DNA of 36,310 bases from a virus: IMG/VR virus record IMGVR_UViG_3300036827_000116, positions 1 through 36,310 of that record, one strand, 5' to 3'. Under the pieces are notes generated by a model. That model searched no databases. It saw only the letters and a program-made list of their open reading frames with translations, and had not been told where the DNA came from. Each line of letters starts with the position of its first letter. Within the stretch, counting starts at the first letter, position 1. Shown piece by piece: positions 3,706 through 25,661 of this stretch. Both the position numbers and the translations under genes were made by a program.

Positions 3706-3741
3706 CCGACCTGGGCGGCGGTGCCGCTACGGCGTCACGGT

Positions 3742-5965: not shown

Positions 5966-6276
5966 TGGGCATCGCGCACGAGTGCGCCCGTAAATTTTAC
6001 TGGCGGGATTTAGAGACTCGCGAGGACGTGACGGCCGACGTGGTCTGCGACCTCATCAAACGGATCGATCGATTCAAAACGGGGAACTCAGACAATGCAA
6101 ACTGGTACTACTCAACCATCGCCCGAAATCTCTTCCACCGAAAATTCAGGGCGGCCTACCGCCCCGCTCCCGTTTTGTTCACGGATCTGGCTGAGGACCG
6201 CTCAGGGCGCTACCGCGAAGGACCGCCGCCGCGGCAACCCAACAGGCGCTCGGTCCTCGCGAAACGATATGTTTGA
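5965..6276 (+). CDS. T4 gp55-like sigma factor (region 2)
   Basis: A 103-residue protein from the TGATG overlap. Residues 10-60 (REDVTADVVCDLIKRIDRF...NWYYSTIARNLFHRKFR) match the sigma region 2 pattern: E/D-rich helix, then L...I..FD-like turn, then a Y/F-rich helix ending in basic residues. T4 gp55-type late sigma factors share this layout and lack region 4. It would bind host core RNA polymerase and direct it to late phage promoters. Upstream sense codons in the same frame (FYQLFRQRWKNFDAICEGL) suggest the protein may start earlier. The tail is Pro/Arg-rich. Its target sequence is unknown. Confidence 0.65.
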   Translation: MGIAHECARKFYWRDLETREDVTADVVCDLIKRIDRFKTGNSDNANWYYSTIARNLFHRKFRAAYRPAPVLFTDLAEDRSGRYREGPPPRQPNRRSVLAKRYV

Positions 6277-8037: not shown

Positions 8038-8395
8038 AATCTCTGTATCGATTACGCTCGGCGTCACTAAGGGCTTTCTGTCCATTGCAAAGGACGTGTC
8101 GGTCAAAGCTGACATGGCTGGCACGCATCACTCTGCGGGCGCTCAGACCATCGGAACTTCTGACGAGCAAATCGTTTTCGGCAGCGACGTCGCGACGGCC
8201 GGCTTTTGCTGGTTTCGTAACCTCGATGCCACCAACTATGTCGACGTCGGCGTCCACGATGGTGGCGGGACTTTTATCGCATTCGGACGGCTGATGCCGG
8301 GGCAGGCGGCGCTGATGCCACTTGCCACGCTCTCCGTATACGCGAAGGCAAACACCGCGGCCGTTGTTCTGGAATTCGAATTGATCGAAGCGTGA
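8027..8395 (+). CDS. Putative virion decoration or fibre-base protein
   Basis: A 122-residue beta-rich protein without charged clusters. The C-terminal half, FCWFRNLDATNYVDVGV...FGRLMPGQAALMPL...VYAKANTAAVVLEFELIE, has the layout of small beta-sandwich proteins common in phage structural blocks (xxRNLDATNYVxIGV / LxPGExAxxxL / YAKADTAAVxLxYxxxE). GTG start behind AAGGGGGAAAACC, overlapping the recombinase by 11 bases. It probably forms part of the capsid surface or a fibre; the family resemblance is from memory. Confidence 0.65.
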   Translation: MANEISVSITLGVTKGFLSIAKDVSVKADMAGTHHSAGAQTIGTSDEQIVFGSDVATAGFCWFRNLDATNYVDVGVHDGGGTFIAFGRLMPGQAALMPLATLSVYAKANTAAVVLEFELIEA

Positions 8396-8415
8396 CGCCG
8401 TGGCACAGCGTCGAT

Positions 8416-8428
8416 CCTGGTCAGTCAC
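8416..8428 (+). promoter_or_regulatory. Intergenic word copy 1 (CCTGGTCAGTCAC)
   Basis: The first of six copies of CC(T/A)GGTCAGTCACAG, all in plus orientation and all in spacers. Here the last bases are diverged (TTGCAG). A GTGAC lies at the preceding stop codon and a GGGGGACAG ribosome site follows. Confidence 0.75.
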
Positions 8429-8444
8429 TTGCAGTGGGGGACAG

Positions 8445-8915
8445 ATGAGAGCAATCTCGATGCGCGAGACGTGCGAGTTTAACTTTCGTGCGTTCTGCGA
8501 GCGGTATTTTCCCGAGCGATTCTCACAGCCATGGACCTCTGACCAACTCAGCTTAGTGAATCACGTTTCTCACCTCGTGCTTAGCGCAACAGGGCCGATT
8601 TCTTTCAATCCCATGCCGCGCCCACCGCGCGGAATTGGATACACATCCATTTGCATTACGGCAGCAGAGTGGGCGCTGGTCTACGGGCACAGGCGCTCAA
8701 TTCTGATTGTGGGCAGGCACGTCGGGTTGTGGCTGCTGGACCAAGTCGTGCATGATTATCCGGAGGCAGAGAAACGATTCGAGCGCAACAAGTTGATCCT
8801 GCCTGGTGTCGCGGAGTCGGAAGGCACATTGACAGTTGCGCAGCGTCTGAGCCGCGATCAAAGCCAGCATGACTTTGTGATCCTCGATCAGCCCGAGCGC
8901 GACGATTTGTCATAG
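8445..8915 (+). CDS. Truncated terminase-like protein with altered Walker motifs
   Basis: A 156-residue paralogue of the N-terminal ATPase part of the large terminase next door. Aligned by eye: RETCEFNFRAFCERYF matches REACRLSLRLFCETYC; AAEWALVYGHR matches AAEWALLFGHR. The Walker A region is PRGIGYTS instead of PRGSGKTA, so the catalytic Lys is Tyr. After a shortened middle, DFVILDQPERDD matches the Walker B region DFVIPDDPQTKD and the protein ends there. The start has a GGGGGACAG site. The frame is intact, so it may be a maintained pseudo-ATPase, for instance a packaging regulator or a stand-in for the small terminase, which is otherwise unseen. It could also be a decaying duplicate. Confidence 0.7.
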   Translation: MRAISMRETCEFNFRAFCERYFPERFSQPWTSDQLSLVNHVSHLVLSATGPISFNPMPRPPRGIGYTSICITAAEWALVYGHRRSILIVGRHVGLWLLDQVVHDYPEAEKRFERNKLILPGVAESEGTLTVAQRLSRDQSQHDFVILDQPERDDLS

Positions 8916-9046
8916 TCGCAAAAAATTATTGGGAGTCGCCGCGGATTTTCAAAAGGTACTCCTGGGCCGCGCCGCGCGTCGATGCCACAGGGAACTGCAA
9001 CAATCTTGAACTGCCTTAGCAAGCAGGATGTCCGTGGGACTGGGGG

Positions 9047-11086
9047 ATGGCTAAGGATTATAACGAGCGTAAGGACCAGGTAGCCGACATCCTGCGGGAG
9101 AAATCCACGAAGGGGCGGGACATCGGCGCGCCGCCACCCGTCGCCAATCCTGAACGCCGCGAAGCTTGCCGCCTCAGCCTGCGGTTGTTCTGTGAAACCT
9201 ATTGCTCGGCGGTCTTCTACCTCGGCTGGTCTGACGACCACCTGCGCGTCATTGAGATTATCGAAAACGCTGTATTACACGGCGGGCTGTTCGCTGTAGC
9301 GATGCCACGCGGCAGTGGCAAGACGGCGCTGTCAGTAGCGGCGGCAGAATGGGCTTTACTCTTCGGCCATCGCTCATTTGTCGTCCTGATTGGCGCAACC
9401 GAACGACACGCCACGCGTCTGCTCAAGAACATCAAAGCCGATCTGGAATATAACGACCTGCTGGCCGAAGATTTTCCGGAAGTCTGTTATCCGATTCGCC
9501 GGCTCGAAGGCATCTCACACCGCGCCGCCGGCCAGCTCCTCGACGGCGCACGCACGCACATCGTTTGGAAGTCCGACGAAATCGTCCTGCCAACGGTCAA
9601 AGGCAGCAAAGCCAGCGGCGCTATCGTCAAGGTGGCGGGTCTCACCGGCGCCATTCGCGGCATGCAGGTGAAGCGGCCATCGGATAACAGCCTGATCCGC
9701 CCGGACTTTGTCATTCCGGACGATCCGCAGACCAAAGACTCCGCCAAGTCGCTGGAGCAAACAGAGGATCGGATGCGCACGATCAACGGCGACGTAATCC
9801 TTCTGTCGGGACCTGGCAAAAAGATCAGCGCCGTGATGCCCATCACCGTTATCGTCAAGGGCGACTTGGCTGACCAGTCTCTGGATCGGGAGAAGGCCCC
9901 AGACTGGCAGGGCGTTCGCACCAAGCTGCTAAAGTCGCCACCGACTGACGACAAACTGTGGGAGCAGTACGCCGAAATTCGGGCGGAGAGTCTGCGCAAG
10001 CATGGGGACATCAGTGAGGCTACCGAGTTCTATAAACAGAATCGCGAGGCGATGGACGTCGGCGCGGTGCCATCGTGGTCGTTGCGGTTTGACGAAGACG
10101 AGATTAGTGCAATTCAGAATTGCATGAACCTGAAGCTGCGCGATCCGATCAGCTTCGCGGCCGAATGTCAGAATGATCCACTGTCACCTCAGGCGGAAAA
10201 CTTACTGAATCTCAAGCCCGAACAGATCGCCGCCAAGGCACTGCCCATCAAGCGCGGCACCGTGCCGGCATGGGCAACCAAGTTGACCGCATTCATCGAC
10301 GTGCAAGGAAGCCTGCTCTACTACGTCGTCTGCGCATGGGGCAACGATTTCTCCGGCCACATTGTTGACTACGGATGCTGGCCCGAGCAGCGGCAAAATT
10401 ACTTTTTCCTTCGGAATGCCTCGCCAACTTTCGCGGAAGTGATGCCCGGCACCGCGCTGGAGGGGCAAATCTACGGCGCGTTGCAGGCGCTGGTTGCCAA
10501 GTTGCTTGATCGGGATTGGGAATGTGACGACGGCAAGAGCCTGCGGATCGGCCGGTTGCTGATCGACAGCGGCTATCGGGCCGACATCGTCAAGCAATAC
10601 GCAAGAGAATCCGGGTCTTTCCGATCGCTGATCATTCCTTCCAAGGGTTACGGCGTTGGTCCTGAACAAAATCCGATGGACCAATGGACCATCAAGGACA
10701 AAGAGGGAGATCGTCGCGGCTGGAGTTGGCTGATCAACAAGGCCGAAGGCCACGTTCTCTACGACACCAATATCTGGAAGACATTCATTGCTCAGCGCTT
10801 CGTGATGAGCGCCGGGGAAATCGGGAACTTGTCGCTGTTCGAAGGATCGCCCACGCGGCACAAGCTATTCATGGACCACGCTACCAGTGAATACACGGTC
10901 CGAACGGAGGGCAAAGGGCGCATTGTGTTCGTGTGGAAGCTGCTCGCCGGCCGGGAGAATCATTTGTTAGACGGCATCGTCGGTTGCGCCGTAGCCGCGT
11001 CCGAGCAGGGCATACTGTTCACCGGACACCAGCCGTCGACAGGCCAAGGACAACGAAAGCGCCGGCGCTTCAACGTGAAGTTTTAA
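9047..11086 (+). CDS. Large terminase subunit
   Basis: A 679-residue DNA packaging motor. The ATPase domain holds Walker A PRGSGKTA (87-94, Lys92) and a Walker B DFVIPDD (220-226). The nuclease domain shows FIDVQGSLLYYVV with Asp418, LLIDSGYRADIV with Asp507, and a late LLDGIVGCAVAAS Asp, the expected RNase H-like acidic set. A basic tail ends in KRRRFNVKF. It is longer than most terminases (450-600). The start ATG follows a loose GGGACTGGGGG. The 131-base spacer before it (8916-9046) has no gene; a cos or pac site could lie there. It cuts concatemeric DNA and pumps it through the portal. Confidence 0.95.
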   Translation: MAKDYNERKDQVADILREKSTKGRDIGAPPPVANPERREACRLSLRLFCETYCSAVFYLGWSDDHLRVIEIIENAVLHGGLFAVAMPRGSGKTALSVAAAEWALLFGHRSFVVLIGATERHATRLLKNIKADLEYNDLLAEDFPEVCYPIRRLEGISHRAAGQLLDGARTHIVWKSDEIVLPTVKGSKASGAIVKVAGLTGAIRGMQVKRPSDNSLIRPDFVIPDDPQTKDSAKSLEQTEDRMRTINGDVILLSGPGKKISAVMPITVIVKGDLADQSLDREKAPDWQGVRTKLLKSPPTDDKLWEQYAEIRAESLRKHGDISEATEFYKQNREAMDVGAVPSWSLRFDEDEISAIQNCMNLKLRDPISFAAECQNDPLSPQAENLLNLKPEQIAAKALPIKRGTVPAWATKLTAFIDVQGSLLYYVVCAWGNDFSGHIVDYGCWPEQRQNYFFLRNASPTFAEVMPGTALEGQIYGALQALVAKLLDRDWECDDGKSLRIGRLLIDSGYRADIVKQYARESGSFRSLIIPSKGYGVGPEQNPMDQWTIKDKEGDRRGWSWLINKAEGHVLYDTNIWKTFIAQRFVMSAGEIGNLSLFEGSPTRHKLFMDHATSEYTVRTEGKGRIVFVWKLLAGRENHLLDGIVGCAVAASEQGILFTGHQPSTGQGQRKRRRFNVKF

Positions 11087-11432
11087 GTGACGGCTTGATC
11101 GCTCCGCACCGACGGCAGGTCACAGCGATCGCGTAACGCCACGCGCGGAGTTGGCGGCCGCGGGCACCCTGGTCAGTCACAGGTGGCCAGCAACGCCGCT
11201 TACGGGGTTAGGATCCGCAACACTGCCCGGCCAAGCGCAGTAGCAATCGGCAGACGCCGGCCAGTCACAGCGATCGCGTATCACCCGCGGCGGCGATGTC
11301 TGCCGGCGCATAACGCTAACCGTGACGCGGAAGCTGTGCCAAGTCCAGGACCTGTCACGGCCGGCACCGTCATCCAGATACAAAATCCCGCCCGCCGCTG
11401 ACTATTTACGGTTGACCACAGGTGCCATCCGA
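11087..11432. other. Gene-free spacer with GTCAC copies and a 17-base direct repeat
   Basis: About 345 bases without a convincing gene. It holds six GTCAC/GTGAC copies, the 15-base word at 11168-11182, and two exact copies of GTCACAGCGATCGCGTA at 11119-11135 and 11264-11280, each containing the GCGATCGC palindrome. Open frames across it are Arg-rich shadows. It separates packaging from the fibre-like genes and may hold a promoter or recombination site. Confidence 0.7.
11168..11182 (+). promoter_or_regulatory. Intergenic word copy 2 (CCTGGTCAGTCACAG)
   Basis: An exact copy of the 15-base word in the spacer after the terminase, followed by GTGGCC rather than a ribosome site, about 250 bases before the next start. 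This is the copy least tied to a gene start. Confidence 0.75.
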
Positions 11433-12158
11433 ATGCTTGTACACTCCGCGCGCCCATCTTCGAACGACGCCGCTTCGATTGTGCTGTCCGAAGCCAATTA
11501 TGGCGGGCTCCCGACGAACTATTGGCCGCTTGATGAGGCGGCCGGTACGTCGGCGCTCGACGTCATGACCACGGCAAAGGGCAGCGGCAACGCCGGCACC
11601 GCGGGCGGCACGCCAACCAGGGGCACGACCGGGCCGTTTCGTGGAACGCGGTCGACAACGTTCAACGGATCGACGGACTTTTTCTCCTTTCCGAATTCAT
11701 CCGCGTACAACTCTGCCAGCGGATCGATACTGGCGTGGTTCAACACGACCATGAACAACTATGGCAACATCTCGCGAAGGGATGACGTCGCGAGCAATCG
11801 CGCTTGGCTGTTCAGAGTTGAGCCGGGGGGACACTTCGAAACGCTGCTGATCTTTGGAGGTATTCCCGACGTCGACAGTGGCTTTGCCGTCAATGATGGC
11901 AAATGGCATCACGCCGCCATGACGTGGGCCTACGACGGTTCAAGCACCACGCTGTTATCGCAGTACGTCGACGGCGCTCTGACGGGAACCGCGTCGACCA
12001 GCGGGTCAATGCCGGCCCTCAACACTTCGCTCTACATCGGACGGGTTTTCACCGGTGCCGAATCGTTCGCGGGGAGCGTCGCGCAGAAGTGCTTTTATGC
12101 CTACGCGATGAGCGCCGCGAGAATCAAGGCTCAATATCTCTCTGGGTTTACGGGATGA
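11433..12158 (+). CDS. LamG/concanavalin-like domain protein
   Basis: A 241-residue protein. Residues 25-240 fit the LamG/concanavalin A-like lectin fold: YWPLDEAAGTSALD near the start, FNGSTDFFSFPNS, ILAWFNTT, the hallmark GKWHHAAMTWAYDG, YVDGALTG, LYIGRV and a final FAGSVAQKCFYAYAMSAARIKAQY. This fold binds sugars and is common in phage fibres. The start at 11433 is preferred over an upstream frame that runs through spacer repeats. The stop overlaps the next ATG. Its position between terminase and portal suggests a capsid-associated fibre rather than a tail-tip one. Confidence 0.82.
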   Translation: MLVHSARPSSNDAASIVLSEANYGGLPTNYWPLDEAAGTSALDVMTTAKGSGNAGTAGGTPTRGTTGPFRGTRSTTFNGSTDFFSFPNSSAYNSASGSILAWFNTTMNNYGNISRRDDVASNRAWLFRVEPGGHFETLLIFGGIPDVDSGFAVNDGKWHHAAMTWAYDGSSTTLLSQYVDGALTGTASTSGSMPALNTSLYIGRVFTGAESFAGSVAQKCFYAYAMSAARIKAQYLSGFTG

Positions 12159-13717
12159 GTTTAAATCTACAAAACTCGACGGCGGCGAGCGGCAAGAACA
12201 TCACCAGCGCCTTGCTGTTAGCCTCTTACGCTGCCAGTGCGGACCGCATGATTGCCGTCAGCGGTCTGATTAAGGCGCTCAACGCCGCGGCGGCGGTGCT
12301 CACGCTGGAGCTGCGCCAGTATGACGGCACGACGGAATATCGATCGCTCGATGCGTTCAGCGCTTCCAAGCAATCCACATCGGACACGGTGCAGCGGTTT
12401 TCCTTCAATCCCGTGAAGGTGCGAAGCGGATGGACGATCCGCCTCTATGCCACGTCCACCAATTCCAGCGATACCTCAACGGGCTACGATATCGATTTTG
12501 ACGACACGGGGAGCAATCCAGCCAGCGGCGATGCGTATGCCTACGTGGTCACAAATCTCGGCGCGCTGGGCGCTGCCGCAACGGCGCTCGCTCCGGCTTC
12601 AACCGCGCTTTCAACGGCGGTTTGGACGGGAACAATCGCGGGAAGAATTGATGCCGCGGTTACCAGCCGCATGGCGACGTACACGCAGCCGACTGGATTT
12701 CTTGCGGCCACATTTCCATCGACGGTCAGCAGCTACGCGGGCGCGGATACCTCGGGAACGACAACACTCCTCACCAGAATTCCCAGCGCTATTACCGTCA
12801 GCGGCGGAAAAGTCGCGGCCACGATGGGCAGTGGGGATTACACAGGCAACACGGTTCAAACCGGCGATTCCTTCGCGCGTATCGGGGCGACGGGATCGGG
12901 ACTGACTTCGCTGGCGCCTGCGTCAACCGCGCTTTCAACGGCGGTGTGGACGGGAACAATTGCGGGCCGGATCGACGCCGCGATCAGCAGCCGCATGGCG
13001 AGCGGCTCTGTAACCCTTGCAGCTTCGCAGCCGGACGTTGTCTTTGCATCGTTGATCTGTACGGGCGCGCTCAGAATCACGGGCGGTGTCGCCATCACGG
13101 ATGACAACAACATCGGTGCCGACACGGTGCTCATTTCCAGCCACGGGAACGGCGCGGACACCGTTGCAATTATTAACCCCGGGGGCGGCGGGTCGTTTTG
13201 CATCAACGTGAACAACGACGCCGGCTTGGCGCTGGAGCTCTCAAACAACAGCGGTCCTACAGCGGTCCAAGTGTTCGGAGATGGCAGCCAGCCGGCAATC
13301 ACCGTCACGGCTTTAAACTTCGGCGAACTCGCCGCCTCTCAGCCGAATTACGCCCCGGCCAAAGCCGGCGATGCGATGACGTTGACCAGCGGAGAGCGAT
13401 CGGCCATCGACAGCGAGCTTTCCGGCACACATGGCAGCGGACAGTGGGGCGGTGGCGGCGCGTCGCTCAGAACAGGCACAGCGCGGGCAGGCAGCGCCTA
13501 CAGCATCACGCTTGATGCGGGTGCGAATTCCGCGAACGGATTTTACCCGCGCGGCACCATCATCATCCTTACGGGCGGCACCGGGGCCGGGCAATGGAGC
13601 ACGCTGACCGGCTACGACGGGACAACCAAGATTGCGACCGTCGAGCGCGATTGGATCGTTTCTCCGGACAACGCCAGCGTGTTTGAACTTCTCGCCGGCA
13701 GCAGCCGGCCGCGGTAA
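12155..13717 (+). CDS. Repeat-containing fibre-like virion protein
   Basis: A 520-residue Ala/Ser/Thr/Gly-rich protein. Two copies of an about 30-residue unit, LAPASTALSTAVWTGTIAGR then IDAA..SRMA, lie near residues 146-175 and 254-285 and mark a repetitive, probably triple-stranded or beta-helical shaft. The C-end has TIIILTGGTGAGQWSTLTGY then IATVERDW, a small domain common in phage structural proteins near the head genes. The gene is coupled to the LamG gene by ATGA. It is probably a head or neck fibre assembled with the LamG protein; receptor binding is inferred. Confidence 0.75.
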   Translation: MSLNLQNSTAASGKNITSALLLASYAASADRMIAVSGLIKALNAAAAVLTLELRQYDGTTEYRSLDAFSASKQSTSDTVQRFSFNPVKVRSGWTIRLYATSTNSSDTSTGYDIDFDDTGSNPASGDAYAYVVTNLGALGAAATALAPASTALSTAVWTGTIAGRIDAAVTSRMATYTQPTGFLAATFPSTVSSYAGADTSGTTTLLTRIPSAITVSGGKVAATMGSGDYTGNTVQTGDSFARIGATGSGLTSLAPASTALSTAVWTGTIAGRIDAAISSRMASGSVTLAASQPDVVFASLICTGALRITGGVAITDDNNIGADTVLISSHGNGADTVAIINPGGGGSFCINVNNDAGLALELSNNSGPTAVQVFGDGSQPAITVTALNFGELAASQPNYAPAKAGDAMTLTSGERSAIDSELSGTHGSGQWGGGGASLRTGTARAGSAYSITLDAGANSANGFYPRGTIIILTGGTGAGQWSTLTGYDGTTKIATVERDWIVSPDNASVFELLAGSSRPR

Positions 13718-13722
13718 CAATT

Positions 13723-14247
13723 ATGAATGAACTTCACGCAAATATCCCGACCGGTTCAAGCGCCTCAGCCATCATCCGATCGCCGCTGGGGCAGTTGTGG
13801 AACGGCAGCGCGTTCGAGAACTGGCTCGATGCGCATTATGCCACCTACCTTATGGCGCTGAGCGAGCAGGGGACATCGGGATATTTCGCGGCCGATTTCC
13901 CCGCGGCCATCCTCAGCGGCGGCACTTACACCATCGAATACGTCTACCGGGCGCAGGGCAGCACGCCTTCCATCGCCGGCGACAGCGCGGCGTCGAGTGA
14001 TTTCCTCGTGCGTGGCGCGAGCGCACCTCCCAGCGGTTCGTCGGCATCGCCCGCGGACATGGTCCTGATTCTCAAAGCGTTTTTGGCAAGCAATGCCGGC
14101 GTGAAGCAAGTCAACGTCGACGGCGTTCTGGTCACATTAGATCGGGCGCAGGCCCTGGAAGAGCTTCAGTATTGGCAACGGCAGGCCGCCGCGGCCGCGG
14201 GCACGCGCAAGCTGTTCCGCGGCTTCAATATGACCAAGGCGTTTTAA
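13723..14247 (+). CDS. Virion-associated protein following the fibre gene
   Basis: A 174-residue protein starting five bases after the fibre gene. The N-terminal 90 residues are a probable beta-sandwich (IIRSPLGQLWNGSAFENW...SEQGTSGYFAADFPAA...GTYTIEYVYR). A Ser/Pro-rich hinge follows, then a helical C-end with an Ala-rich stretch (YWQRQAAAAAGTRKLF). This looks like an accessory protein that joins a fibre to the capsid. The family is not recognised by name, although the beta part resembles proteins next to phage head fibres. Confidence 0.6.
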   Translation: MNELHANIPTGSSASAIIRSPLGQLWNGSAFENWLDAHYATYLMALSEQGTSGYFAADFPAAILSGGTYTIEYVYRAQGSTPSIAGDSAASSDFLVRGASAPPSGSSASPADMVLILKAFLASNAGVKQVNVDGVLVTLDRAQALEELQYWQRQAAAAAGTRKLFRGFNMTKAF

Positions 14248-14253
14248 CTGTGG

Positions 14254-14272
14254 CACCGGCGTCTCGCCGGTG
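14254..14272. repeat. REP-like palindrome copy 2
   Basis: CACCGGCGTCTCGCCGGTG, flanked by GTGG and TCTT, seven bases after a stop codon and 46 before the portal start. It could end transcription or protect the 3' end of the upstream message. The intergenic 15-base word follows at 14294. Confidence 0.85.
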
Positions 14273-14293
14273 TCTTCAGTGCGATCGCGCTAG

Positions 14294-14308
14294 CCTGGTC
14301 AGTCACAG
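14294..14308 (+). promoter_or_regulatory. Intergenic word copy 3, fused to the portal ribosome site
   Basis: CCTGGTCAGTCACAG runs directly into GGGGAGAAG and the ATG at 14318. The word therefore overlaps the Shine-Dalgarno here. That is too close to the start codon for a conventional promoter with a leader. Confidence 0.8.
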
Positions 14309-14317
14309 GGGGAGAAG

Positions 14318-15721
14318 ATGTTTGGATTTTTTGGGTGGACGCGAAAAGCATACGACGCCGTCGCCACCAACAAGCGCCGGCGGCAGACCAATACCGATCT
14401 GCGCACCGAAGACAAACTGCTGTTGCCGGTGGACCGCGCCAAGCTGATCAGCATGACGCGCAGCCTGCGCCGCAATGCTTCAATCGTCGCCTGGGCGATT
14501 CGCAAACATCTCGACTACGTTTCAACGTTCAACTTCAAGTGCCGCGCGAAGCACGCGGACCCAAAAGTGTCCGCGGCCATCAATGCCCGGGTCGAGGCGC
14601 TGATGGATTGGTGGTCGCGCCCGCTCAACTGTGACGTTTCCGGGCGCTTCGCGCTGCCCCAGATGATCCGCATGCTGGAGAGCGGCGCGACCGTCGACGG
14701 CGACAGCCTGATTTACAAGCTCTCCGATGGCCGCATCCAAATCATCGAAGGGGACCGCATCCGCACGCCCGCCGATCTGGGCGACTATGCCGGCAAGGTC
14801 AAGCCGGAAGATTTCACGCACGGCATCAAAACTTCCGCCAGCGGCGCGCCGCTGCTCTTTGCAGTGTGCGATCGCACGGCCGGGCCGATGGGATTCAAGC
14901 TCAACTCTTTGGTGCAGGCAAAATATGTCTATCACCACGGCTACTTCGACCGCTACGAACAGACGCGCGGCATCTCGCCGCTTTCGTCGGCGCTGAATCA
15001 GTTCATGGATTTGTATGAGGGCCAGGAATACGCGCTGGCGAAAATGAAGCTGGCGCAGCTGTTCGGCTTGAAAATCACCAACGGCGAAGCGGTCGAAGGG
15101 GATGACGGCAAGGATTACGAGTTCGATTTCGGCGCAGGCCCGCAGACCTTGCAGCTTGTGGGCCAGGAAGACGCCGAATTCATGGAGAGCAATTCTCCCA
15201 GCGTCGAGTTTCAGCAGTTCATGCAGACCGGCATCATGATCGGTCTGAAGGCGCTGGATATCCCGTTCTGTTTCTTCGACGAAGCGCATCAGAACTACAG
15301 CGGCACGCGCCAAGCCATCCTGCAATACGAACTGTCCGCCGACAACAAGCGATTCAATCTCCAGCAGAAGCTCAACGCGCTAACCGCGTGGCGGCTCGGA
15401 TTGTTTATCGCCGACGGCGAATTGGTCTTGCCGGATGGGATGACGATCGACGATTTGAAATTTGAATGGGTGCCCGTCGCCATCCCGTGGATCGATCCGC
15501 TTAAGGAAGTGACCGCCAATACCCTGGCGGTGCAGGGGTGCTTCCGTAGCCGGCAAATGATCTGCAAAGAGACTGGATCAGATTTTTTCGAGGTCGCCGA
15601 TCAAATCGCGGAGGAGAATGACTACTTACGGGGCAAAGGGCTGAATCCGGATATCGGGAACGTGACGCAGGTGCTGGGGGAATTCCTGAATGCCGACAGT
15701 GGGGACAAAAAAGCCGCCTGA
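14318..15721 (+). CDS. Portal protein (lambda-like)
   Basis: A 467-residue portal of the lambda type. Seen: a basic N-end, NASIVAWAIRKHLDYVSTFNF, a wing with GDSLIYK and IQIIEGDRIRTP, the conserved YVYHHGYFDRYEQTRGISPLSSALNQFMDLYEGQEYALAKMKLAQL, then NYSGTRQAILQYE and a final WVPVAIPWIDPLKE. Twelve copies form the vertex channel for DNA entry and exit. The start has the CACAGGGGGAGAAG site. The end overlaps the protease gene by 32 bases, a typical portal-protease arrangement. Confidence is high from motif order and context. Confidence 0.92.
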   Translation: MFGFFGWTRKAYDAVATNKRRRQTNTDLRTEDKLLLPVDRAKLISMTRSLRRNASIVAWAIRKHLDYVSTFNFKCRAKHADPKVSAAINARVEALMDWWSRPLNCDVSGRFALPQMIRMLESGATVDGDSLIYKLSDGRIQIIEGDRIRTPADLGDYAGKVKPEDFTHGIKTSASGAPLLFAVCDRTAGPMGFKLNSLVQAKYVYHHGYFDRYEQTRGISPLSSALNQFMDLYEGQEYALAKMKLAQLFGLKITNGEAVEGDDGKDYEFDFGAGPQTLQLVGQEDAEFMESNSPSVEFQQFMQTGIMIGLKALDIPFCFFDEAHQNYSGTRQAILQYELSADNKRFNLQQKLNALTAWRLGLFIADGELVLPDGMTIDDLKFEWVPVAIPWIDPLKEVTANTLAVQGCFRSRQMICKETGSDFFEVADQIAEENDYLRGKGLNPDIGNVTQVLGEFLNADSGDKKAA

Positions 15722-16745: not shown

Positions 16746-16813
16746 ACAGGGGAACAGGGGACAGGGGAGGCCGCACGTCTGCGCGCATCCGTTGAAAAGC
16801 TTTTGGGGGAAAC

Positions 16814-17764
16814 ATGTCGAACTCGTTTATCAGCCTCGCCGATCTGGTCAAGCTCAACGATCAAAACGCCCGCGATCTGGGCATCACCGATCTGCTCAAT
16901 GACGCGCCGGTTTTAAAAGCGCTCGCCGCCACCACGGCGAGCAACGGCACGCTGCATCACTACATCAAACAGACCGGCGCGCCCACGGTTGGCTTCCGCG
17001 CCATCAATGCCGGCAAGGACAACGGCGCATCGGGCTACACCGAAGTCGACGTGACGCTCAAGCTGCTCGATGCCAGCTTCATGGTCGACAAGGCGATGGC
17101 CGACAACTATCGAGGCGGCCCCGAGGCGTTCAATCAGCGCGAGGCGCTCAATTCGCTGAAGCAGGCGTTTTACATTTTCGAAAAGCAAATCTTCTATGGC
17201 ACCGGGCTCGCCGATGCCAGCGGCTTCAGCGGACTGGCCGACAACACGGCCTTCGACGGCGCGGGGGATTCCCTTGTCGTCAATGCCACCGGCACCACCG
17301 CGTCCACCGGCTCCTCAGCGTGGCTGATTCGGTCCACGCCGGACGAAATGAACGCGACGGCGGTCATTGGCAACTCCGGGGAAATCTCCATCGGAGAAAC
17401 CGTCGTCGCCACCAAGCCCGACGACAGCACGGCCACGAAAACCTATGGCGTTTATTACACGCCGATCCAAGCCTACTGCGCCCTGCAGATCGGCGGCGCT
17501 TACAGCGTCGTGCGAATCGCCAACTTGACCGCGGATAGCGGCAAGGGTCTTACGGATGCCGTCATCGCCAAGGCTTTGGCGCTGTTCCCATCCCAGCGCG
17601 GGCCGACAATGCTCGCCTGCAACCGGCGCTCGCTGTTTCAACTGCAAGCCAGCCGCACGGCCACGAACCAGACCGGCGCACCTGCGCCGATCCCAACCGA
17701 ATCCTTTGGGGTGCCGATTATCCCGACCGATTCGATTTCCTCGACCGAAACGCTGTTGTCGTAG
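16814..17764 (+). CDS. Major capsid protein
   Basis: A 316-residue HK97-fold capsid subunit. Typical features: an N-end that names its own leader region (LADLVKLNDQNARDLGITDLLNDAPVLKAL), TLHHYIKQTGAPTVGFRAINAG, LLDASFMVDKAMADNY, FEKQIFYGTG (spine helix end), GFSGLAD, a long beta domain and a C-terminal MLACNRRSLFQLQASR then GVPIIPTDSISSTE. The start follows GGGGGAAAC. A 68-base spacer before it contains ACAGGGGA repeats. 415 copies (T=7) would be usual for this size, which is inference. No obvious protease cleavage site could be assigned. Confidence 0.9.
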   Translation: MSNSFISLADLVKLNDQNARDLGITDLLNDAPVLKALAATTASNGTLHHYIKQTGAPTVGFRAINAGKDNGASGYTEVDVTLKLLDASFMVDKAMADNYRGGPEAFNQREALNSLKQAFYIFEKQIFYGTGLADASGFSGLADNTAFDGAGDSLVVNATGTTASTGSSAWLIRSTPDEMNATAVIGNSGEISIGETVVATKPDDSTATKTYGVYYTPIQAYCALQIGGAYSVVRIANLTADSGKGLTDAVIAKALALFPSQRGPTMLACNRRSLFQLQASRTATNQTGAPAPIPTESFGVPIIPTDSISSTETLLS

Positions 17765-17782
17765 CACCGGCGTCTCGCCGGT
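17765..17782. repeat. REP-like palindrome copy 3
   Basis: CACCGGCGTCTCGCCGGT begins at the base after the capsid stop codon (TAG). It is followed at once by intergenic word copy 4 (17786) and hairpin repeat A (17806), forming a composite 120 bp spacer element. Confidence 0.85.
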
Positions 17783-17785
17783 CAT

Positions 17786-17800
17786 CCAGGTCGGTCACAA
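17786..17800 (+). promoter_or_regulatory. Intergenic word copy 4 (CCAGGTCGGTCACAA)
   Basis: A copy with two substitutions, joined by AAAGA to the 80 bp hairpin repeat. The same junction (word, then a short A/G link, then TTTTGAACAGG) recurs at 19754-19780, so the two elements may travel together. Confidence 0.65.
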
Positions 17801-17805
17801 AAAGA

Positions 17806-17884
17806 TTTTGAACAGGAGGAAGCAGAGGTAGCAGAGAAATGCGGGGGTGAACCTCTGCTTCCTCCGCTGCCTCCTGTTCAAAAA
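17806..17884. repeat. Long hairpin repeat A
   Basis: The arms TTTTGAACAGGAGG...GCAGAG and CTCTGC...CCTCCTGTTCAAAA form a nearly perfect stem of about 31 bp around a 15-base loop. Two further copies with different loops lie at 19773-19852 and 34584-34662. It is a palindromic dispersed repeat of MITE/REP type. It would fold strongly in RNA between the capsid and connector genes and could reduce downstream expression or stabilise capsid mRNA. Confidence 0.85.
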
Positions 17885-17908
17885 TCTGCGCATTGTTTGG
17901 GGAAGAAC

Positions 17909-18286
17909 GTGAACGTGCACGACATCGTCAAGAGTGCATTGAAAGCCGTCGCCGGCACGGCCGGCGTCCCGGTGATCTATGCCCGCGGGAACTCGACCGT
18001 GGAAATTGATGACGCGATGCCGGCGCAAGCCAACTATGGCGTCGCCAACGTCGAGCCCGCGCAAATCGACTATCAGGCGAAAGATTTTCTGATTGAAGCG
18101 TCTCAGTTGGTGCTCGACGGCGGGCGCATCACACCGCGGCGGGGCGATCAGGTGCGCGAGACGCAAGGCGGAGTCACTTACATTTACGAGGTGCGCCGCC
18201 CCGATTCTTCGGAAAAAGTCTGGCGCTTTAGCGATCAACTCCGCGGCTGGATTCGAGTGCACACGACGTTGAAGGGGACCGCTTGA
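17909..18286 (+). CDS. Putative head-tail joining protein
   Basis: A 125-residue protein from GTG 17909, which has GGGGAAG four bases upstream. The middle (QIDYQAKDFLIEASQLVLDGGRITPRRGDQVRETQGGVTYIYEVRRP) is a string of beta strands like head-tail stopper/joining proteins of the lambda FII/SPP1 gp16 type, and the end is WRFSDQLRGWIRVHTTL. The position between capsid and tail terminator supports this. TTG 17897 is another possible start. Its stop overlaps the next TTG start. Confidence 0.68.
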   Translation: MNVHDIVKSALKAVAGTAGVPVIYARGNSTVEIDDAMPAQANYGVANVEPAQIDYQAKDFLIEASQLVLDGGRITPRRGDQVRETQGGVTYIYEVRRPDSSEKVWRFSDQLRGWIRVHTTLKGTA

Positions 18287-18753
18287 ACGTACTGTCGACG
18301 ATTGGGGAGGCCGTGAAAACGGCGCTGGCCGGCGGAACGTTTAACACGGCGTTCGATTCGATTCAGCGCGTGTATGTTCCGGAATATCCCGAACTCGACC
18401 CGGACACGGCCGGCCCGTACACCCAAATGATTCTGCTGGTGGTGGGGCTGGAAGAAAAGCCGGACCTGTTCGGGGAGAACTCGACGCGGGTGGATTGCGA
18501 GCACGATCTGCAAATCCGCGTGGCGATGATGAAGCGCATCACCGCGGGGGACGTTACCAGCTCGGCGGCGGTGGCGGAGATGGATGCGCTCTCCGACATC
18601 CGCCAGCAAGTCCTGGACCTGCTCAAGACGGCCGCGGTAACCGGGGCAACGCTGAAAGATATTTCGAATTCGCCGGCCTACGACCCGGCGGCGCTGGACG
18701 GCAACGGCGTGTGGGTTTCGGTCTTTGCGCTCACGTATCAGACGAGCCGCTGA
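18283..18753 (+). CDS. Putative tail terminator / completion protein
   Basis: A 156-residue protein read from TTG 18283 (TTGA overlap with the previous stop). It has an N-terminal helix with VKTALAGGTF, beta strands ending at QMILLVVGLEEK, CEHDLQIRVAMMKR and a C-terminal VWVSVFALTYQT. This is a layout like small lambda gpU-type tail terminators, which cap the tail tube and join it to the head. Gene order (before the tail tube gene) is the strongest argument. Confidence 0.65.
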   Translation: MNVLSTIGEAVKTALAGGTFNTAFDSIQRVYVPEYPELDPDTAGPYTQMILLVVGLEEKPDLFGENSTRVDCEHDLQIRVAMMKRITAGDVTSSAAVAEMDALSDIRQQVLDLLKTAAVTGATLKDISNSPAYDPAALDGNGVWVSVFALTYQTSR

Positions 18754-18779
18754 GCGCTGACTAGTCAATTCAAGGGGGA

Positions 18780-19241
18780 ATGATGCCACTTTATCGGCTT
18801 GGGGAAAATGGTCATGTGTATTACAGCGCGACACCGGTCACTTCGTTGACCTACACGCTGCCGACGACGACGGTCGACAACATTAAGGACGTGAAGGTTG
18901 GCGCGAAAAACGACACGCCGGAATCGACGGTGCGCGGTAACGGCGGGCAAAAGTCGTTCGCCAACTCCCTTACCGAACTCGGCATCCAGCTTCAGATTCG
19001 GGTGCCGGGACCGGCGCAAACGGACGCCGCTTACACCGCGCTGCTCGCCGCATTTACGGGCAAGACTGAAATCGCGGCGTACGCGCTGAACGACCTTAAA
19101 TCGGTTGTCGGCGCAGACGGCCCCGCGGGCAATTTCATCGTCGCCAGCTTTGATCGGGACGAAGGCAACGGCAACGTCCAGTGGATCAGCGTCGAGCTGA
19201 AGCCGTCCAGCTTCAATTCCTGGTACACCGTCGCGTCGTAA
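18780..19241 (+). CDS. Major tail tube protein
   Basis: A 153-residue beta-rich protein located just before the chaperone genes. Seen: VYYSATPVTSLTYT, a loop with DNIKDVKVGAKNDTPESTVRGNGGQKSF (a likely surface loop), LQIRVPGP, FIVASFDRDEGNGNVQWISVELKPSSF and a final NSWYTVAS. Tail tube proteins stack as hexameric rings and commonly show this ending. The start has AAGGGGGAATG; the second ATG (18783) is equally possible. Identity rests on position and on the strand pattern. Confidence 0.75.
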   Translation: MMPLYRLGENGHVYYSATPVTSLTYTLPTTTVDNIKDVKVGAKNDTPESTVRGNGGQKSFANSLTELGIQLQIRVPGPAQTDAAYTALLAAFTGKTEIAAYALNDLKSVVGADGPAGNFIVASFDRDEGNGNVQWISVELKPSSFNSWYTVAS

Positions 19242-19252
19242 GTGGCACGTGG

Positions 19253-19270
19253 CACCGGCGTCTCGCCGGT
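19253..19270. repeat. REP-like palindrome copy 4
   Basis: CACCGGCGTCTCGCCGGT, ten bases after the tail tube stop. A GTTGGCAG-type repeat (19273-19300) follows. The rest of the spacer to 19394 shows a GAGAATAAAG/ACGGGGA ribosome region and nothing else recognisable. Confidence 0.85.
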
Positions 19271-19272
19271 TT

Positions 19273-19300
19273 AGTTGGCAGTCAGTAGGCGGTTGGCAGA
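19273..19300. repeat. GTTGGCAG-type repeat copy 1
   Basis: TTGGCAGTCAGTAGGCGGTTGGCAGA, part of a family also at 33052-33074, 34321-34352 and 35816-35845. These are degenerate head-to-tail units of seven to eight bases. Confidence 0.6.
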
Positions 19301-19394
19301 GACGTCGGCCGACAACGCTGAATTGGGTGATGCCGCCAGGCGACAACTCCGGCCGTGACGTTGCTGCAGGAGAATAAAGCTAAACGGGGAATTC

Positions 19395-19733
19395 ATGAAA
19401 AACACAGTACAGATTTTGATAAACGCCATTGAACGGGCGGAGAACGAAATCAAGCAAATCATCGGCGATATCGAAGCCGCTGCTCGATCTCGGGCAGTCA
19501 GCGAGCGCAAGGTGACCGATCTGCAAACCCAGATCGACGAGCACCAAACCGTCATCAAGTTGATCGGCTCCGCTGAGGCGAAGCCGGCTCCGGTCGCTGC
19601 GCCCGTCGAGACTCCTGCCGTTGTTGAGGCTAAGCCAGCACAAACGCCAGCAGTTCAATCAGCAGCCATTCCGATGCAGGAGCAATCTGTGACTCCGGCG
19701 GCACGGCCCGCGATCGATCCGTCACAGCCGTGA
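19395..19733 (+). CDS. Coiled-coil protein with Pro/Ala tail
   Basis: A 112-residue protein. Residues 1-60 are a coiled coil with regular Ile/Leu spacing (ILINAIERAENEIKQIIGDIEAAARSRA...DLQTQIDEHQ). The rest is a Pro/Ala/Val tail. It lies between tail tube and chaperone genes, so it could assist tail assembly or decorate the tube; no family is recognised. The start has AAACGGGGAATTC. The stop is inside a GTGAC copy. Confidence 0.6.
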   Translation: MKNTVQILINAIERAENEIKQIIGDIEAAARSRAVSERKVTDLQTQIDEHQTVIKLIGSAEAKPAPVAAPVETPAVVEAKPAQTPAVQSAAIPMQEQSVTPAARPAIDPSQP

Positions 19734-19753
19734 CTGAGTTGGTGGACAATCAG

Positions 19754-19768
19754 CCAGGTGAGTCACAG
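19754..19768 (+). promoter_or_regulatory. Intergenic word copy 5 (CCAGGTGAGTCACAG)
   Basis: One substitution from consensus. It follows the stop/GTGAC of the coiled-coil gene and is joined to hairpin repeat B. The next gene starts about 110 bases later, beyond the hairpin. Confidence 0.7.
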
Positions 19769-19772
19769 AAGA

Positions 19773-19852
19773 TTTTGAACAGGAGCAAGCAGAGGTAGCA
19801 GAGGGCGCTCCGGATTTTCCTCCTCAGCTTCCTCCGCTGCCTCCTGTTCAAA
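19773..19852. repeat. Long hairpin repeat B
   Basis: Same arms as repeat A (TTTTGAACAGGAG...GCAGAGG and CCTCCGCTGCCTCCTGTTCAAA) with a different loop. It sits between the coiled-coil gene and the tail chaperone gene, in the same relation to the intergenic word as repeat A. Confidence 0.85.
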
Positions 19853-19879
19853 CTCCGCGAATTTCTCTGAAGGGAACAA

Positions 19880-20332
19880 ATGAAGCAATTCAAAGATGAG
19901 CAGGGCCGCGACTGGATGATCGATGTGACCGTCGGCGCAATTAAAAGCGTGCGCGAACTGCTCAAGGTGGACTTGTGGAATTTCTTTGGCGATGAGGCCA
20001 AGCGCATTCTCTCCGATCCGCCGATGCTGGTGGACGTGGTGTACGTCTTGTGCAAGCAGCAATGCACCGAGCGCGGATTGACCGACGTGGATTTCGGCCG
20101 GCTCTTTAGATCGGATGTCCTGGAGGCGGCGAGCAACGCGCTGATCGGTGCGGTGATCGATTTTTTCCCGAAAAGCCGCCAAACGATTCTGAAGGCGTGG
20201 GCGGCGAAGTCGGAGACACTGGGTCAACAGATCGATCAGAAGATGATGGATCAAATCCAATCCCTGAAACTGACGGATATGCTCGCGCCTGGGAAATCGC
20301 AGGCGCGCTCAAAATCGACCCGCGGCCGCTGA
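19880..20332 (+). CDS. Tail assembly chaperone (G-like)
   Basis: A 150-residue helical protein beginning MKQFKDEQGRDWMIDVTVGAIKSVRELLKVDL, a pattern of phage tail chaperones that bind the tape measure during tail assembly. Other features are a Leu-rich core (ILSDPPMLVDVVYVLCKQQ) and an ending in RSKSTRGR. The -1 frame opens before its end and carries a typical T-domain, so a fraction of ribosomes probably shifts to give a longer G-T product. The start follows CTGAAGGGAACAA. Confidence 0.78.
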   Translation: MKQFKDEQGRDWMIDVTVGAIKSVRELLKVDLWNFFGDEAKRILSDPPMLVDVVYVLCKQQCTERGLTDVDFGRLFRSDVLEAASNALIGAVIDFFPKSRQTILKAWAAKSETLGQQIDQKMMDQIQSLKLTDMLAPGKSQARSKSTRGR

Positions 20333-20586
20333 CGGCGCGGGAACTGTGCCACATGGCCGCGGGCCACGAAGCCGATCAGTATCCGATTCTCTGCCTGCTG
20401 GCGGGAATCGTGAACCGTTTGGGGGGCAAGGACGCCACGCCGATCCGGATTTCTCCGCCAACCGGCATGCGGACCGCGCCGGAAAAGAAACTGAGCAAAG
20501 CGCAGCAGCGGGAAGAATGGGCCGAAGCGCGGAAAATGTGGGAACGGGGTTGCTCGCAGCGGGGGCAGGGGGGCAACGGTGGTTGA
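20197..20586 (+). CDS. Tail chaperone T-extension in the -1 frame
   Basis: This open frame is -1 relative to the G-like gene. From about 20288 on, it reads AWEIAGALKIDPRPLTARELCHMA, a sequence type found in T-domains of tail chaperones (IDPRPxTxREL). It ends KMWERGCSQRGQ at 20586, overlapping the next GTG. It is probably expressed only as a G-T fusion by -1 frameshifting in 20197-20332. Candidate slip points are GGGAAAT at 20291 and CAAAATC at 20310. Neither is a perfect X XXY YYZ heptamer in the required phase, so the exact site is open. Confidence 0.68.
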   Translation: MGGEVGDTGSTDRSEDDGSNPIPETDGYARAWEIAGALKIDPRPLTARELCHMAAGHEADQYPILCLLAGIVNRLGGKDATPIRISPPTGMRTAPEKKLSKAQQREEWAEARKMWERGCSQRGQGGNGG

Positions 20587-21004
20587 GATTAAATTCAGCA
20601 TGTTCTTTGACCGCCCCGGCGTGATGCGCAAGGTCAAGGACGGCACCAAATCAGCACTATCGCGATTCGGCGCTTTCGTCCGCACCAGCGCGCAGCGGAG
20701 CATGCGGCCGGGCGGCAAGAAAAATGCGATCGCTGCGCCAGGCACACCGCCGCGCACTCACACCGGATTGTTGCGCAAGCTGATTTGGTTCGGCTATGAC
20801 GACAGCACTGATTCGGTTGTGGTGGGTCCGAAACGATTCAACTCCAGCGGGCGTCCGGTGCCACAAGTTTTAGAGCAGGGTGGACCGGGCAAAACCTCCA
20901 AGGGTGTGCCGGCGATCTATCGAAAATTTCCATTCATGGCGCCGGCCTTGACGGCCGAGCAGGATAAGTTTGCCGGGCTGTTCGAAGGCGCGATTCGAGG
21001 ATAA
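20579..21004 (+). CDS. HK97 gp10-like tail component
   Basis: A 141-residue protein. It shows a basic helical N-part (RKVKDGTKSALSRFGAFVRTSAQRSM), then GTPPRTHTGLLRKLIWFGYD, VVVGPKRF, PQVLEQGG and a final FPFMAPALTAEQDKFAGLF. This is the order of HK97 gp10/lambda gpZ tail completion proteins. Such genes normally precede the tail tube; here it follows the chaperones, as in some siphoviruses. GTG start inside the end of the T-extension, which suggests coupling. Confidence 0.75.
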   Translation: MVEIKFSMFFDRPGVMRKVKDGTKSALSRFGAFVRTSAQRSMRPGGKKNAIAAPGTPPRTHTGLLRKLIWFGYDDSTDSVVVGPKRFNSSGRPVPQVLEQGGPGKTSKGVPAIYRKFPFMAPALTAEQDKFAGLFEGAIRG

Positions 21005-21006
21005 CG

Positions 21007-22956
21007 ATGGGTCAGGGGGACATCAGAGCCGGCGGCGCGTACGTCGAGTTGTTCGTCAAGGGCAACGTGGGCCCACAGCTCAACCTGGTGCAAAAGAAAC
21101 TCCAGCAGTTGGGCGAGAACATTACGTCGATCGGCAAACGTTTAGCGGGCATCGGGGCGGGCATCACCGCGCCGCTGTTGCTGGCGGCGCAGCGCTTCGC
21201 GTCGATGGGTGATGAAATCAACAAGGCCTCTCAGCGCACCGGCATCGGTGTCGAGCAGCTCGGCGCGCTCAAGTATGCGGCGGAGCAATCCGGGGCGTCG
21301 TTTGAGGATCTGGAGAGCGGCGTCAAGAAAATGGAGAAGACGCTGTTCGAAGCCGAAGCCGGATCGGCCGCGGCCAATCAGGCGCTGCGCGATTTGGGGC
21401 TGACGGCGGCGGGGCTCAAGGGGCAATCTCCCGATCAGCAACTGCTCGCGATCGGCGACGCGCTTTCCCACGTCCAAGACGCCGGCGCTCGCGCCGCGAT
21501 CGCGATGCAAATCTTCGGCAAGGGCGGCACGCAATTGCTGCCGCTGTTCGCCGATGGCGCGGAGGGCATGCGCAAGCTCACCGATCGGGCTAGGGAACTG
21601 GGCCTGGTGTTCAGCAAGGAAGACGCGGAAGCCGCAACCCGCTTCCGTGACATCTGTGAAGATTTGTGGAAGCAGGTGCAGGCGGTCGCATTTCAGGTTG
21701 GCGCGGCGGTGGCTCAGGCGCTTCAGCCCTTCGCGGAAGCGGCCACGCGCGTGCTCAGTTCCATCATCGAATGGATCAAAGAGAATCGGGCACTGGTCAT
21801 CGCCATTCTTGGCGCGGGGATCGCGCTCATCGCGGCCGGCACAGCGCTGATCGCATTTGGCACGGCGATTTCCGTAACGGGCGCGGCAATCGAAGGCCTG
21901 CTGGATGGGCTGGCGTTCACCAAGTCCGCGCTGCTCTTGCTCACCAACCCGATCGTACTGATTGGCGTTGGCCTTGTCGCGCTGGCCGGATATTTCCTTT
22001 TCTTCACCGAGACGGGCGGCAAGGCGCTGGCGTGGCTGTCCGGGAAATTCGACGAACTCAAATCAGACGCCACCGAAACATTCGGGGGCATCGCCGATGC
22101 GCTGGCCGCGGGCGACATCACGCTGGCCGCGCAATTGTTCTGGACGTTCTTAAAACTCGAATGGACCCGCGGCGTCGAGGCCATCAAGGGAATCTGGGCT
22201 CCGCTGGTGATCTGGTGGAATGACACGATCTTTGGAATGCAATCCACCTTTGCGTTGATCGGCGCGGGCATCGAGACGATCTGGGCGAGTCTGGTGTACG
22301 GCATGGGGACCATCTTCGACGGCTTTGTACATTACAGCACGCTCGGCATTTTAAAATTGCTCGACACGTTTCAGGGGCCCGTGCTCAAGCTGCTCGGCAT
22401 CTCCGCCAAGCTACTCGGGCTCGGCAAGGATTTCGCCGACTTTCAAAAGACGCTCGCTCAAAGCTCTCCGCAGCAATTGATTGCTTTGGAAAACCAGCGC
22501 TATGCCGGCGACACCAGCAATTCAGACGACTACCAGAAGCGGCTCGACGGTGTGCATGCTGAACTCGACAAGACGCTGGCGGAACTGGCGGACGCGCACA
22601 AAAAGGCGAACGACAAAACCAAGGACGATTCCGCCGATGAGATTGCCAAGCTGGAAAAACGCAAAGCGGAGTTGCAGGCGCAGCTGGCGGCGCTGCGCGA
22701 GAAGGCGCACGTTGAAAAAGACCATGCGCTCATCACGAACCTTCCGCCCAAACCCAATTTTGATAACGACCCGTTTGCCGCGGCCGGCGCGGGGGCGGCG
22801 GCAAAGTCGGCGGGCATTTTCAACTCGGCGGCGATTTTAGCGCTGCAAAGTTCCGGTCAATCCACGCAAGATCAGATTCGGCAAAACACTTTGGATTCCG
22901 CCAACAGCCTGAAAAAGATCGAGCGGACAAAGATCAATTTCCAGTTCGGACCGTGA
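21007..22956 (+). CDS. Tape measure protein
   Basis: A 649-residue protein. The N-part, VELFVKGNVGPQLNLVQKKLQQLGENITSIGKRLAGIGAGITAPLLLAAQRFASMGDEINKASQRTGI, is typical of tail tape measures. Two hydrophobic stretches lie near 261-295 and 308-335 (membrane or pore segments used at DNA injection). A charged coiled coil runs about 499-575. The known ruler relation (about 0.15 nm per residue) predicts a tail near 100 nm. The start is two bases after the gp10-like stop, with a GGATAACG spacer only. No peptidase or lysozyme domain is apparent. Confidence 0.9.
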   Translation: MGQGDIRAGGAYVELFVKGNVGPQLNLVQKKLQQLGENITSIGKRLAGIGAGITAPLLLAAQRFASMGDEINKASQRTGIGVEQLGALKYAAEQSGASFEDLESGVKKMEKTLFEAEAGSAAANQALRDLGLTAAGLKGQSPDQQLLAIGDALSHVQDAGARAAIAMQIFGKGGTQLLPLFADGAEGMRKLTDRARELGLVFSKEDAEAATRFRDICEDLWKQVQAVAFQVGAAVAQALQPFAEAATRVLSSIIEWIKENRALVIAILGAGIALIAAGTALIAFGTAISVTGAAIEGLLDGLAFTKSALLLLTNPIVLIGVGLVALAGYFLFFTETGGKALAWLSGKFDELKSDATETFGGIADALAAGDITLAAQLFWTFLKLEWTRGVEAIKGIWAPLVIWWNDTIFGMQSTFALIGAGIETIWASLVYGMGTIFDGFVHYSTLGILKLLDTFQGPVLKLLGISAKLLGLGKDFADFQKTLAQSSPQQLIALENQRYAGDTSNSDDYQKRLDGVHAELDKTLAELADAHKKANDKTKDDSADEIAKLEKRKAELQAQLAALREKAHVEKDHALITNLPPKPNFDNDPFAAAGAGAAAKSAGIFNSAAILALQSSGQSTQDQIRQNTLDSANSLKKIERTKINFQFGP

Positions 22957-22976
22957 CGCGCGGGCTTAGCCGTTAG

Positions 22977-22991
22977 CCAGGTCAGTCACAG
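22977..22991 (+). promoter_or_regulatory. Intergenic word copy 6 (CCAGGTCAGTCACAG)
   Basis: A full copy after the tape measure stop (itself in CCGTGACG). It is followed by a run of G and GGGGGACAG before the ATG at 23014. Confidence 0.75.
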
Positions 22992-23013
22992 CAGCGGGGG
23001 GGGCGGGGGACAG

Positions 23014-25650: not shown

Positions 25651-25661
25651 TTAGGGGACAG

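Follow-up and report, generated by a model that had tools for sequence, protein, structure and literature searches.

The stretch of DNA studied here, IMG/VR virus record IMGVR_UViG_3300036827_000116 (36,310 bases, the whole of which we call the window), carries genes for terminase, portal, head protease, head and tape-measure proteins, a serine integrase and an O-like replication protein, a combination that makes a temperate tailed phage probable. A first-pass annotation had noticed a 15-base word, CCWGGTCAGTCACAG, recurring in the spacers of its virion gene block, and had proposed that it was a late promoter or an operator for a phage sigma-like or ribbon-helix-helix (RHH) protein, an RNA element, or a linker for modular exchange. 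Here we describe the word as one half of a larger symmetric site, and the association of such sites with a C5 cytosine methyltransferase that carries a cysteine-rich C-terminal tail and is encoded in the same window.

The word is half of a dyad with fixed spacing

The six plus-strand copies of the word lie where the first-pass annotation had placed them, and depart from it as reported: those at 11168, 14294 and 22977 have no mismatch, that at 19754 has one, and those at 17786 and 8416 have two each, the last with a diverged end. When both strands of the window were searched with up to three mismatches, 13 matches were found against 0.85 ± 0.88 expected from shuffles, a number reached in 0 of 100 shuffles, bearing out the earlier view that the word recurs beyond chance. 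Two good reverse-strand copies had gone unlisted, an exact one at 32774–32788, a half-site at the start of open reading frame (ORF) 32776–33207, and one with a single mismatch at 2960–2974. None of the six original copies is inside a recognised gene, as had been claimed, but the claim fails for the copy at 2960–2974, a lone half-site within the C5 methyltransferase gene.

The full unit is a 37-base-pair (bp) dyad, GTGAC-N27-GTCAC, present in the window in 15 exact copies. The GTGAC that had been said to mark the preceding stop codon does so, and is the second arm of this one site. There are 22 pairs of GTGAC and GTCAC up to 70 apart in the window, with a gap of exactly 27 in 15 of them; shuffles gave a mean of 1.7 such pairs in total and a maximum of 2 at any single gap. 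Exact dyads at other spacings, from 15 to 45, occur 0–1 times each. Relaxing the match at gap 27 gave 15 exact dyads, 3 with one mismatch and 14 with two, against about 0, 1.5 and 14 at neighbouring gaps. Because the 27-base interiors are unrelated, yet decayed copies are scarce, the invariant boxes appear to be under selection, which indicates a selected site rather than a spreading repeat or recent copying.

Half-sites of the form [CT]GTGAC....C number 31 in the window, against 8 for a reversed control motif, and 82 units pooled from 16 records gave the consensus Y-GTGAC-N4-C(85%)-N2-G(60%). The word is the reverse complement of this half-site; the usual form of the window, on the other strand, is CTGTGACTGACCWGG. 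The two half-sites of a dyad face each other, 32 bp from centre to centre, or about three helical turns. GTGAC and GTCAC stand 3 bp apart in matS (GTGACRNYGTCAC), the site of MatP; no pair with this spacing was found in the window.

Many copies of the dyad are spread through the genome, in short intergenic spaces. Outside the linker of the methyltransferase gene, the midpoint of the dyad is non-coding in 10 of 12 cases (P ~1.6e-5, given that 22.8% is non-coding on a gene map of our own ORF choice). Two overlapping dyads (2417–2453 and 2434–2470) lie in the linker ahead of the C5 methyltransferase domain, a third (2485–2521) is directly ahead of this domain, and a fourth (3269–3305) is at the end of the methyltransferase ORF, followed by two that together form a four-box element (3337–3373 and 3351–3387). 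In five dyads a TGA stop codon lies inside the 5′ GTGAC box: those at 3702–3738 (stop of ORF 3394–3705), 5223–5259, 8392–8428 (stop of 8027–8395; it contains the word at 8416 and precedes the ATG at 8445), 19730–19766 (word at 19754) and 22953–22989 (stop of the tape-measure gene; word at 22977, ahead of the ATG at 23014). The dyad at 19730 is in tandem (N4) with one at 19689–19725, at the end of ORF 19395–19733; another, at 11087–11123, abuts the stop codon of the gene for the large terminase (9047–11086), and the last two are at 11322–11358 and 35424–35460. The word at 14294 belongs to a near-dyad (14270–14306; 5′ box GTGTC, one mismatch) ahead of the portal gene at 14318. The plus-strand copies at 11168–11182 and 17786–17800 are half-sites, the former with a partner box that is not conserved and the latter after the major head protein gene, adjoining repeats of PVC type.

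Dyads far from the methyltransferase are also found in other phages (G617, G626, G612, G625, G624 and others), mostly in spacers or at gene ends, with three in G626 inside a predicted ORF. In G617 (loci L273–L275) a double dyad of ~84 bp at 20536–20619 recurs, nearly identical and inverted, at 35767–35850, 15 kb apart, suggesting that such sites can be copied as a unit.

Site clusters accompany tailed C5 methyltransferases

The ORF at 1627–3318 (plus strand) reads as one frame through a D12 N6-adenine methyltransferase (N-terminal half) and the tailed C5 cytosine methyltransferase (C-terminal half; 2527–3315, plus strand), with a linker made of dyads. The C5 half, which we propose as the binder of the sites, is flanked by its own dyads (2417, 2434 and 2485 before; 3269, 3337 and 3351 after), matches PF00145 and has the C5 methyltransferase fold. 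Tailed enzymes start at catalytic motif I and lack an N-terminal helix-turn-helix-like regulatory domain; their additional part is a C-terminal Cys-rich tail, in the window CGCGCGRAINERQTYALACCRKRMQRR (3187–3267, plus strand), which is of zinc type with invariant C, C, C, C, R, K and R. The stretch CxCGCGRxVxG...ACRKRMQRRR was common to 13/13 methyltransferases of the first alignment, and from the Cys pattern we infer zinc binding by the tail. A structure model of the window protein (mean pLDDT 91) has the tail ordered, with a basic helix at 238–253. A PDB profile match covers about the first 136 residues, the catalytic part resembling M.HaeIII, and the tail alone gave no significant match to Pfam.

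A scan of viral contigs for the word alone returned 62 contigs with single exact matches in unrelated contexts, except for L058, an unrelated viral contig in which the dyad spacing is the same as in the window. Viral contigs were also scanned for two interleaved dyads, GTGAC-N9-GTGAC-N13-GTCAC-N9-GTCAC. This four-box pattern matched 13 contigs, two of which (L157 and L158) were discarded because the match was due to simple repeats; in 8 of the other 11, which include inoviruses and tailed phages, dyads stand directly before or after a C5 methyltransferase gene. All contigs with tandem dyads (6/6) encode a C5 methyltransferase or its deleted remnant. The sole window protein common to dyad-bearing records is the C5 methyltransferase, with 50–60% identity to 12 methyltransferases of other such records. 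In the reverse protein search the closest relatives of the enzyme (57–66% identity) had dyads at the gene, whereas relatives below 40% did not. A Methylomonas plasmid also carries the methyltransferase with the site pair, and four direct half-sites closely precede the methyltransferase gene of Pseudoalteromonas corticovirus GXT1010 (43% identity); a sigma-70 scan of this corticovirus site found no promoter. The untailed relatives in L168 and Methylorubrum AM1 had no sites.

To compare enzymes with and without the tail, half-sites were counted in ~560 bp of flank at 80 viral loci. The 42 tailed loci had a mean of 5.38 half-sites per locus, against 0.07 for the control motif, and N27 dyads in 20 of them; the 38 untailed loci had a mean of 0.29, against 0.18 for the control, and N27 dyads in 0. 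At least two half-sites were found at 31/42 tailed loci as opposed to 1/38 untailed loci, and that one is cut by the contig end inside the tail. Density reaches 12.7 half-sites per kb within 150 bp of a tailed methyltransferase gene, is at background beyond 300 bp and is 0.27 per kb beyond 1.2 kb. The geometry is rigid within a subfamily and differs between subfamilies: N27 dyads, as in the window, direct repeats of 23 bp (L177, L232, L233, L241 and mostly also L218) or direct repeats of 24 bp (L220, L221, L231). The C at position 10 of the half-site (C10) is conserved in both geometry classes, class A with N27 dyads and class B with direct repeats (87% and 71%). Site clusters thus follow the tailed C5 methyltransferase across inoviruses, a corticovirus and tailed phages.

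The first-pass annotation had held that absence of the word from the spacers of relatives would speak against it, and the outcome depends on the gene by which relatives are chosen. The 65 relatives of the terminase (29–52% identical in the best segment) lack the word, with 1 word-like match in 868 kb, and searches with the portal and head proteins found no relatives, whereas relatives of the methyltransferase do have it. The element therefore follows the methyltransferase and not the virion block, and an element of the terminase or virion lineage was set aside.

Several other features were seen beside these. At 8020–8600 in L283, a C5 methyltransferase gene has most of its catalytic part deleted and keeps the coding sequence of the tail and at least 8 dyads, unless this is an assembly fault; a D12 methyltransferase gene (8614–9363) adjoins the dyads and the remnant. 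The window encodes, at 96–674, a protein with DNA polymerase beta palm and thumb domains, of which the dyad-bearing phage G606 has a distant relative, and at 25647–27407, beside the tail genes, one large ORF that combines a glycosyltransferase family 9 and a TylF-type methyltransferase. The PVC-type repeats are of several kinds, a CACCGGCGTCTCGCCGGTG palindrome, a paired GATTTTGAACAGGAGG... repeat, a pattern from which is also present in PVC genomes, CAACGCTCAAC and GGCAGTTGGCAG, and were listed at 3742, 14250, 17761, 19249, 34679 and 35460, with further positions at 17802–17883, 19769–19855 and 34579–34665, at 33138 and 36142, and at 34319 and 35810. Some directly adjoin the word copies at 14294, 17786 and 19754, and the presence of these repeats suggests a PVC (Verrucomicrobiota-like) host for the phage.

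Possible functions of the sites

The reading we favour, with a probability of about 0.6, is that the word is the half-site of an operator of a zinc-tailed, autoregulatory C5 methyltransferase, reused in the manner of stoperators in the spacers between virion genes. The constant distance of about three turns between the opposed half-sites of an N27 dyad makes it probable that a complex of two subunits docks on a single face of the DNA. Enzyme bound at the clusters beside its own gene would limit its own expression. The further dyads lie in the short gaps of the virion block that separate the stop codon of one gene from the ribosome-binding site of the following one; enzyme bound there could act as a roadblock or modulator of transcription of the late operon, as stoperators do, with methylation of the conserved C as a possible added step. 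Among the earlier guesses, an operator for a phage protein comes closest; its partner, however, would probably be neither the sigma-like ORF nor an RHH protein, given that the site clusters follow the tailed C5 methyltransferase. Complementarity between the arms of the dyad was no greater than between shuffled partners, so we read the site as double-stranded DNA recognised by a protein and see no support for a conserved hairpin; there was no Rfam match, and the RNA element proposed earlier was dropped together with a hairpin or attC site. A more ambitious version, a widespread viral system in which the zinc tail steers a compact C5 methyltransferase to sites of fixed geometry and the enzyme methylates C10, represses its own gene and gates the virion operon, forming an epigenetic stoperator network in inoviruses, corticoviruses and tailed phages, is one that we doubt more than we trust.

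Several points weigh against the operator reading. What the sequences show is the dyad with its fixed spacing, its place in spacers and its link to tailed methyltransferases; that the tail binds it, that transcription is repressed and that C10 is methylated are steps we infer. The sigma-70 promoter scan of the gene block gave fewer sites than shuffles and none that was sigma-70-like near the window dyads, a result that also tells against the promoter suggested by the first-pass annotation. Many sites are downstream of the methyltransferase gene, where simple promoter repression would not need them; clusters on both sides of the gene make a role in mobility possible; and the P value for placement in spacers depends on our choice of ORFs. 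The contigs L151, L156 and L162, which are incomplete, carry dyads and no detected methyltransferase. Tailed enzymes in L217, L222, L225, L226, L228 and L234 (KKYYDxSCRKR type or similar) have no GTGAC half-sites, nor was any other obvious repeat seen there; these enzymes may read a different site. Finally, presence of the tail is largely a property of clades, which confounds phylogeny with function, and much of the association could go back to a single ancestral event, although the different geometries, the unrelated interiors and the variety of virus types make simple hitch-hiking less likely.

Phages often encode orphan methyltransferases, for which the usual explanation is protection from restriction. 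The sites might be chiefly methylation targets, with the tail reading GTGAC and the catalytic domain methylating C10, so that phage DNA is marked or protected without regulation of transcription. Outside the box no base is as conserved as C10, and the substitute for it in class A is mainly T (9%, versus 1–2% for A or G), as deamination of 5-methylcytosine would leave; the limited extent of the PDB profile match, ~136 residues, also fits a small target-recognition region. Protection, however, predicts spread over the whole genome, whereas the sites concentrate in the 150–300 bp around the methyltransferase gene and at gene borders, and methylation does not need a fixed spacing of pairs. We consider this explanation unlikely.

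That the dyads serve as boundaries for recombination or for cassettes, by which genes and especially the methyltransferase pass from one virus to another, is rather improbable. Such boundaries would explain why dyads stand on both sides of the methyltransferase in many records, why this gene is found in unrelated virus types, and why the double dyad of G617 is repeated nearly identical and inverted. They would not explain class B sites, which are direct repeats and in L177, L232 and L241 lie only or mainly upstream of the gene; moreover, the two flanks have different interiors, neither an empty site nor a target duplication was found, and there is no support for attC-like folding. For the modular-exchange linker of the first-pass annotation, shared homology as the function is disfavoured by the invariant boxes with unrelated interiors and by distant relatives that share only the terminase and lack the word, which leaves of this proposal the possible role in mobility.

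Binding of the sites by another phage or host protein (a sigma-like protein, a repressor or a nucleoid factor), with the methyltransferase as one regulated gene, would be in line with the repressors and dispersed operators that phages commonly carry, and a weak match to Sigma70_r2 (sigma-70 region 2-like; E 1e-4, just under the Pfam cut-off) is present at 5635–6276 of the window. We judge it quite improbable: among dyad-bearing records the methyltransferase is the one window protein in common, and the association, which goes with the tail, is seen alike in inoviruses, a corticovirus and tailed phages whose hosts differ. The idea that the prophage brought the word along as an interspersed repeat of its host, prompted by the PVC-type repeats next to the word and already raised by the first-pass annotation, is very unlikely to hold, since the boxes are invariant with unrelated interiors and since, with the host of the phage not identified, the word was at control level in the sampled PVC genomes (0/213 of one order, control 0; 2/388 of the phylum, 2 for a reversed-pattern control) and the three-box pattern occurred in 1/241, in a simple repeat. 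A profile of the methyltransferase had no match at E 1e-40 in 289 PVC genomes, in a search run without a positive control.

Comparison with known systems

In the open literature we found no earlier description of GTGAC/GTCAC phage dyads or of tailed phage methyltransferases. An enzyme family with its own strict, subfamily-specific sites, which in some phages are spread over gene borders, suggests that such methyltransferases can be transcription regulators; presence or absence of the tail, and N27 dyads versus 23-bp or 24-bp repeats, would then amount to a tail-to-site code, with a simple sequence signature for the regulon.

In catalytic fold and in the sequence of the first ~136 residues the tailed enzymes are like M.HaeIII and M.HhaI; these have ~325–330 residues, whereas the tailed enzymes have 240–290 and end in a Cys-rich basic tail recognised by no Pfam model. 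Integron attC sites in phages also lie at gene boundaries, sometimes adjoining methyltransferase genes (PMC9892861), but the window sites have no GTTRRRY boxes and no conserved pairing of arms, and their spacing is short and fixed.

M.SsoII represses its own gene by attaching, via a separate DNA-binding region, to a regulatory site in the promoter of that gene (PMC3978073). The window system resembles M.SsoII and M.Ecl18kI in that a C5 methyltransferase has an extra, here predicted, DNA-binding region and a dyad-type site at its own gene (PMC3978073, PMC6100179), the regulatory site being distinct from the needs of the catalytic domain. It differs in that the extra region of M.SsoII is N-terminal and 434-repressor-like, whereas that of the window enzyme is a C-terminal zinc-type tail, and in that window-type sites are also found downstream and far away in the phage; M.SsoII, furthermore, is part of a restriction-modification system, whereas no partner endonuclease was found for the window enzyme. 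The stoperators of L5 and other Cluster A mycobacteriophages, which occur in more than 20 copies in promoters and short intergenic spaces and stop elongating polymerase, are likewise many copies of a short site in the short intergenic spaces of a temperate phage genome (PMC9283540). Stoperators, however, are asymmetric and 13 bp long; they follow the direction of transcription and their repressor binds as a monomer, whereas the window site is a symmetric 37-bp dyad for which a methyltransferase is the proposed binder.

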